Shown: in pieces, positions 12,988-13,350 of the stretch
Layout: every line of letters starts with the position of its first letter
Position numbering within the stretch: the first letter of the stretch is position 1
From: a virus
Virus record (IMG/VR): IMGVR_UViG_3300028189_000039
Location: 1 to 31,407 of that record
DNA: 31,407 bases
Strand: one strand, 5' to 3'
Position numbers and translations under genes: made by a program
Notes under the pieces: model-generated
Seen by the model: only the letters and a program-made list of their open reading frames with translations
The model's database searches: none
What the model was told of the DNA's origin: nothing

Positions 12988-13051
12988 ATGTAGTTGATGA
13001 TACTGTAGAGTAGCATTTAAGACGGCGGTTCGACTCCGCCCACCTCCACCA

Positions 13052-13153
13052 ATGAGCCATATGAATGATAATCCTACTTTGTTATTGTGGGTTTTTATAA
13101 TATCGATTATGATGGGATTATATTTTGTTCTAGACTGGACTTTGATGACTTAA
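13052..13153 (+). CDS. Possible 33-aa membrane peptide in tmRNA intervening segment
   Basis: ATG 13052 follows the encoded CCA end of the tmRNA acceptor piece without a gap, and the frame runs to TAA 13151-13153, four nt before the coding piece. The product has a hydrophobic stretch 'PTLLLWVFIISIMMGLYFVL', suitable for one membrane span. There is no Shine-Dalgarno sequence (the upstream bases are the acceptor stem), and a frame of this length can arise by chance, so expression is doubtful. Confidence 0.25.
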   Translation: MSHMNDNPTLLLWVFIISIMMGLYFVLDWTLMT

Positions 13154-13238
13154 TGTTGGGGGTGTTCGGGAATTCGATTGAATGTGATTATGCAGAGGAG
13201 ACCATCTTGACAGATGTAAAATGTCATTTAACTTAATC

Positions 13239-13286
13239 GCAAACAATGACGATTATTTTTCCGCACAGGTAGCATTGGCCGCTTAG
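13239..13286 (+). other. tmRNA proteolysis tag reading frame
   Basis: Resume codon GCA at 13239-13241, then 15 codons in all before TAG 13284-13286, encoding ANNDDYFSAQVALAA. The charged alanine is added in front. The ALAA end is the canonical ClpXP/ClpAP degron terminus. The first residues 'ANND' resemble the 'ANDN' of alphaproteobacterial tags. Confidence 0.9.
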
Positions 13287-13350
13287 TGTTGGAGTGGGCT
13301 TATGATTGTGCCTTGAAACAGAAACAATCAATTACACAAATTAAGGGAAT

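Follow-up and report, generated by a model that had tools for sequence, protein, structure and literature searches.

A phage-encoded, permuted two-piece tmRNA and a probable microprotein gene nested in its spacer

A permuted tmRNA gene places the acceptor piece ahead of the coding piece with a spacer between them, and the locus described here raises two questions: whether such a gene in a virus has the features of a genuine tmRNA, and whether its spacer holds anything of its own. The locus lies in virus record IMGVR_UViG_3300028189_000039, of which positions 1 to 31,407 were analysed (this whole stretch of 31,407 nt is the window). The phage is T4-like; its primase is nearest to those of cyanophages (47–48% identity). 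The parts of the tmRNA gene are as follows.

12988-13051, + strand: acceptor piece of the tmRNA, ending in an encoded CCA and lying 5' of the coding piece in the gene (ARAGORN, Rfam)
13013-13020, + strand: acceptor-piece strand of a long-range helix, pairing with the coding piece (8 nt after TTCGA; covariation)
13024-13028 with 13036-13040, + strand: T stem (covariation)
13049-13051, + strand: encoded CCA of the acceptor piece (sequence)
13158-13164 with 13041-13047, + strand: 7-bp acceptor stem, spanning the spacer (sequence)
13158-13336, + strand: coding piece of the tmRNA, starting GGGGGTG, 3' end approximate (ARAGORN, Rfam)
13239-13286, + strand: tag reading frame ANNDDYFSAQVALAA with stop TAG (ARAGORN)
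13304-13329, + strand: terminal pseudoknot helix GAUUGU/ACAAUC, 13304-13309 with 13324-13329 (sequence)

ARAGORN called a permuted tmRNA at 12959-13377 on the + strand with the tag ANNDDYFSAQVALAA, and the sole Rfam match in the window was to RF04321 (tmRNA_permuted) at 12990-13286, complete over model positions 1-213 and scoring 88.7 bits against a gathering score of 47 (E = 5e-16). The window tmRNA is thus confirmed as a real, permuted, two-piece tmRNA. The initial annotation, made from the letters of the sequence, had proposed exactly this, a phage-encoded, circularly permuted two-piece tmRNA with its own tag, and covariance-model searching, the kind of check it suggested, gave a significant match above the gathering score. 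Its CCA-ending acceptor piece ahead of a GGGGGTG coding piece, with seven acceptor pairs, can be read directly in the sequence, as can the G3-U70 alanine identity pair, the long-range helix of 13013-13020 and the terminal pseudoknot helix; the in-frame tag at 13239-13286 ends, as described, in a C-terminal ALAA degron. Its span of 12988-13330 was right in its coordinates, but the description was incomplete, an open reading frame (ORF) in the spacer going unmentioned.

The compensatory changes that had also been named as a check were found in the acceptor, T-stem and long-range helices. Relatives were gathered from viral contigs by DNA patterns, and covariation was scored on 38 unique mature sequences against a null of 1000 trials in which 3' strands were swapped between sequences. 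The acceptor stem was paired in 266/266 cells (swapped-strand maximum 252), the T stem in 190/190 (maximum 147) and the long-range helix between the pieces in 268/304 (maximum 198), while pair 3-70 was G-U in all 38 relatives. With L082 left out of the comparison, the terminal pseudoknot helix varies on both sides among relatives (GGUUGU/ACAACC, GGGAGU/ACUCCC, GGCCAGU/ACUGGCC).

The window tmRNA joins a class that is already published. Two-piece phage tmRNAs were described in marine phages in 2022, when ARAGORN suggested 53 of them among 402 tmRNA-bearing phages, 50 of the 53 being marine or aquatic (PMC9004378), and the initial view that a permuted two-piece gene is unusual in a phage is not borne out by that count. 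RF04321 itself originates in the tmRNA database as updated in 2025, in which 79 unique phage sequences are listed (PMC11915505). The pelagiphage Mosig carries a two-piece tmRNA, whose gene measures 339 nt in all (ARAGORN). Like the window, Mosig and the Methylophilales phage Melnitz are T4-like marine phages with a permuted tmRNA and their own tag; unlike the window, no spacer ORF has been reported for them, and Melnitz ssrA was placed with the alphaproteobacteria (PMC9004378), whereas the window tmRNA lies nearer to the betaproteobacterial type. A glutamine riboswitch, reported for Melnitz ssrA, had no Rfam match in the window.

Among the older Rfam models of the clan, beta_tmRNA (RF01850) scored best at 46.9 bits, which is under its cut-off of 84, and a stem-loop of the spacer ending in UGAU matches Burkholderiales genes. 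An origin in SAR11 or other alphaproteobacteria, towards which the initial annotation had pointed, is not supported given these two observations; by sequence, the window tmRNA appears closer to the betaproteobacterial type, and the SAR11 link is weak. The permuted tmRNAs of RF01850, whose sequences also feed RF04321, share with the window the order of the pieces, an encoded CCA in some members and the UGAU-ending spacer stem-loop. They differ in that the Burkholderiales genes measured have spacers mostly of 24–34 nt without an ORF, the window itself falling below the cut-off of that family.

The spacer of the window is longer, and its features are these.

13052-13157, + strand: intervening spacer of 106 nt between the CCA and the coding piece (relatives compared)
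13054-13056, + strand: weak Shine-Dalgarno-like GAG, aligning with the GGAG of relatives (AGGAGTCAC-ATG; alignment)
13061-13153, + strand: nested ORF MNDNPTLLLWVFIISIMMGLYFVLDWTLMT, 30 codons, ATG to TAA (relatives L517, L297, L310, L083, L151)
13053-13060, + strand: 5' arm of the spacer stem, covering the Shine-Dalgarno position (fold; end-pair permutations)
13145-13152, + strand: 3' arm of the spacer stem, with the last codons and stop of the nested ORF (fold; end-pair permutations)

By analogy with known permuted tmRNAs, the spacer would be absent from the mature molecule. The nested ORF, for which an alternative in-frame ATG lies at 13052, is predicted to encode a single-span membrane microprotein, and from its hydrophobicity one might guess at a role at the host membrane. 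The nested microproteins that we tested matched no Pfam or PHROG family, and four of them had no tblastn match in isolated phages, so a known phage or membrane protein family was set aside as an identity.

ORFs occupy the same spacer position in relatives, among them L083 (MDDTSNIVMWVLLLSVVIGGYYLLDAILL), L517 (MDDWDLIALWVFILSIIIGMYYVLDWILVS), L127 (MDVKEVTIAIIIFIITLVLIWSLDFVLI) and L031 (MENKLVIGTFILLGFVVLGVWVFVTYAL). In most relatives a Shine-Dalgarno sequence (GGAG or AGGA) adjoins the CCA and the stop lies 1–12 nt 5' of the coding piece, this stop often being the UGA of a UGAU that is also found in noncoding spacers. The cassette type is found at varied genome sites: in the window and L083 it follows an ORF and precedes Fe-S genes, and in L126, L031 and L127 it comes after genes for a zinc-ribbon protein and a putative nuclease (named by eye).

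Of 55 unique spacers of called tmRNAs, 53 had an ORF spanning 70% or more of their length, against 11.0 expected from dinucleotide shuffles, and 51 of the 55 did so when only ATG starts were allowed, against 5.4 expected; 39 of the 53 are of membrane type. These spacers come from scans that require AGGA after the CCA and TGAT before GGGG, a Shine-Dalgarno selection that biases the set (an ATG ORF was also present in 50 of 145 pattern matches outside called tmRNAs) and weakens 53/55 as sole proof, for which reason ORF end position, in-frame selection and an unselected set were also used. The ORF ends no more than 12 nt before the coding piece in 35 of the 55 spacers versus 16 of the 145 outside called tmRNAs (p = 3e-13). 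The unselected set comprises 28 unique spacers with a minimum length of 80 nt, gathered free of Shine-Dalgarno selection, and 12 of these have a recurrent membrane-type ORF near the CCA; L150, from the same 28, has one further in, and a looser script count gives 14.

Selection within the reading frame points the same way, pN/pS being 0.06–0.59 in frame and 0.89–6.7 in the other frames of the families compared. The in-frame values were 0.59 for family A, 0.29 for the L122 family, 0.26 for C, 0.38 for B, 0.09 for a family resembling Bfd ferredoxin, 0.06 for G, 0.08 for I and 0.33 for K, those of small families resting on few changes. L122 and L127 encode the same protein with DNA differences that are almost only silent. 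The spacer ORFs are thus mostly under purifying selection at the protein level. The family of the window ORF has a pN/pS of 0.38 in frame versus 1.20 in the other frames; because the Shine-Dalgarno of the window copy is weak (ATGAG) and its divergence from L083 approaches saturation (dN 0.58, dS 0.87), we infer selection on it from its family.

Spacer ORFs are wholly lacking in many phage permuted tmRNAs. In a control of 59 bacterial permuted tmRNAs, 15 of them chosen for long spans, the median spacer is about 31 nt and holds no ATG ORF, the one GTG frame (bacterial L593) looking like chance. One bacterial-assembly pattern match does have the ORF: L165, from a Flavobacteriales MAG. Its flanks look like those of a phage and are close to L134, and it probably represents phage DNA that was misbinned. 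That MAG, SZUA-1004 (G013), holds several short contigs with phage-type permuted tmRNAs (L165, L607–L609), likely misbinned phage DNA. Separately, another tmRNA clade (L027, L028, L102, L124, L133) has long spacers with a conserved start-less stretch, WYYTENEWSRLG..PLPPERNKQ, which is sometimes frame-shifted and perhaps a decayed gene.

A recurrent nested gene is found in the spacers of dozens of related viruses, and the spacers are exchanged. The cargo comprises membrane microproteins of several unrelated sequence types, CxC..CxxC proteins and others. The CxC..CxxC cargo resembling Bfd occurs in L012, L079, L424 and L503 and separately in L607, in two quite different versions; since the motif was seen by eye and gave no significant Pfam match, the name denotes a resemblance, not an identity. 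Family B (L315, L318, L368, L401, L303, L340) consists of membrane microproteins with a WHW motif. On a tree of 105 mature tmRNAs, built by a short search with SH-aLRT support only, ORF presence or absence requires 17 changes and cargo family 36. Near-identical tmRNAs carry different spacers (none in L006 and Bfd-like in L012; none in L041 and family C in L090; none in L037 and Bfd-like in L079), and the nearest tmRNAs to that of the window include L323 and L364 (family A), the window family being carried by L153. The spacer is best read as a site in these tmRNA genes at which one nested small gene can be exchanged for another.

The spacer ends pair with each other and extend the acceptor stem, in ORF-bearing and noncoding spacers alike. 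Real ends gave −8.7 kcal/mol versus −5.8 when swapped in the ORF-bearing set and −10.6 versus −4.4 in the noncoding set, and none of 2000 permutations was as good in either. Where a spacer carries an ORF, its Shine-Dalgarno falls in the 5' arm and the close of the reading frame in the 3' arm. In models, the Shine-Dalgarno of the precursor is mostly paired (median unpaired probability 0.07); that probability is 0.16 for the excised spacer and rises to 0.81 once the 3' arm is taken away. The simplest interpretation is that translation begins ahead of synthesis of the 3' arm, or else is in competition with precursor folding and cleavage.

We consider it probable that the locus is two genes in one: a working permuted tmRNA and, in its discarded and exchangeable spacer, a microprotein gene whose translation would precede or compete with tmRNA maturation. 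Host tRNA-processing enzymes would cut the transcript into acceptor and coding pieces, removing the spacer with its inner gene, and host RNases would presumably be needed for this. The two pieces would then pair again and receive alanine, and the charged tmRNA, together with host SmpB, would rescue stalled ribosomes and add ANNDDYFSAQVALAA; host SmpB is assumed because neither this record nor any of eight related phage records yielded an SmpB gene (PF01668). The microprotein would be translated from the Shine-Dalgarno immediately after the acceptor CCA, ending at the boundary of the coding piece, and given the stem formed by the Shine-Dalgarno and the ORF end, translation would probably come before, or compete with, folding and cutting of the precursor. 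Between conserved flanking stem arms, phages would place different small genes or none. A promoter of its own was considered for the locus and rejected, promoter-like matches being no commoner than in shuffles.

The strongest alternative accepts the nested protein as real and unlinks its function from the tmRNA, the spacer being a tolerated site in a compact genome and the protein having an independent role, for example at the membrane during infection. We give this somewhat less than an even chance. The lack of sequence relationship among cargo families and their free exchange between tmRNAs fit it well, as do cargos that are not membrane proteins, such as the Bfd-like one; however, the Shine-Dalgarno and stop are built into both arms of the spacer stem, and the ORFs of family B and of the Bfd-like family enter the coding piece, so that cutting must destroy them. 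Some coupling therefore seems unavoidable, though it is perhaps not useful. A more far-reaching version of the two-gene reading, which we put forward tentatively, makes the spacer a dedicated slot for exchangeable cargo, its stem coupling microprotein translation to tmRNA maturation so that a transcript or infection stage would yield one or the other; in some families, cutting would turn the cargo message into a nonstop substrate of the released tmRNA.

The overrun of the coding piece bears on a further alternative. The last codons of family B (..FDGD.. in most) are supplied by the junction together with the coding piece of the tmRNA, and the Bfd-like ORF likewise runs into the coding piece; with the cut site inside the ORF in both families, maturation of the tmRNA must leave the ORF truncated. 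Either the excised spacer or the cut precursor could accordingly serve as a minimal or nonstop message, with the same tmRNA tagging its product and the small protein sensing tmRNA activity in the manner of E. coli ArfA. As family B (e.g., L368, L315) and the Bfd-like family have their stop beyond the cleavage site, cutting would yield a message that lacks one; in other families the stop is only 1–12 nt from the cut. Trans-translation represses arfA, whose mRNA has no stop (PMC10107115). Nonetheless, the TAA of the window ORF lies inside the spacer, where termination is possible, and we regard this explanation as unlikely.

It is slightly less likely still that the window holds an ordinary phage permuted tmRNA whose ORF is no gene and results simply from T-richness in the spacer. 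When AT-rich spacers this long are shuffled, about 1–4% of the shuffles have an ORF over 75% of the length, hydrophobic residues are the default of T-rich codons, and the ORF is missing from many phage spacers; against this stand the in-frame synonymous excess in several families, the Shine-Dalgarno fixed at the CCA with a stop near the coding piece, the excess of observed ORFs over the 11.0 expected and the recurrence of the ORF type at different genome positions. A nonfunctional, decayed fragment of a host gene is a very improbable identity for the tmRNA: phages can acquire ssrA fragments (PMC9004378), but here the covariance match is full-length, the tag is intact, the helices covary, G3-U70 is invariant, and five other contigs (L125, L132, L140, L144, L147) share a spacer and junction identical to those of the window.

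Genes within interrupted tmRNAs have precedents of other kinds. Group I introns with homing-endonuclease genes likewise nest a protein gene in a removed segment of tmRNA, but there the segment is a self-splicing intron of the T-loop, with a homing-endonuclease gene in 36 of 883 cases, rather than a permutation spacer with a microprotein (PMC11915505). The permuted tmRNA of GCA-2688965 resembles the window in having a second gene, a tRNA-Ala, in its intervening sequence; that insert is an RNA gene and was reported as unique, whereas the type in the window is protein-coding and recurrent (PMC11915505). Searching open PMC papers, we found none on a protein gene nested in the spacer of a permuted tmRNA. 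Annotations of tmRNAs hide this class of microprotein gene, as callers report only the RNA and the microproteins tested are without Pfam or PHROG matches. Repeated gain and exchange of the nested gene around a near-constant tmRNA points to a role of the spacer and offers handles on why phages carry tmRNA, and if translation and maturation do compete, the locus would constitute an RNA-processing switch.

The immediate neighbours of the tmRNA gene are as follows.

12586-12987, + strand: upstream ORF, start more likely at 12622, with its stop directly before the acceptor piece (no Pfam or PHROG match)
13351-14486, + strand: downstream genes for two A-type Fe-S carriers (IscA-like, PF01521) and an IscU/NifU-like scaffold (PF01592; Pfam)

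As the stop of the upstream ORF adjoins the acceptor piece, the tmRNA sits inside a row of genes. The Fe-S assembly genes are its direct downstream neighbours and not part of the tmRNA. Two further contigs, L289 and L290 (CAKLQF020000009 and CAKLQH020000011; 'Acinetobacter phage MD-2021a'), have a complete isc operon together with ppiD and mfd and resemble a bacterial chromosome. Elsewhere in the window, the first of two adjacent ORFs at 21558-22732 resembles, by eye, a proton-channel protein of the MotA/TolQ/ExbB type, and 24711-25748 encodes a 345-aa protein with 39% identity to a protein annotated as SbmA (microcin B17 uptake) in records filed as phage; a peptide-transporter-like gene of this kind would be unusual in a phage.
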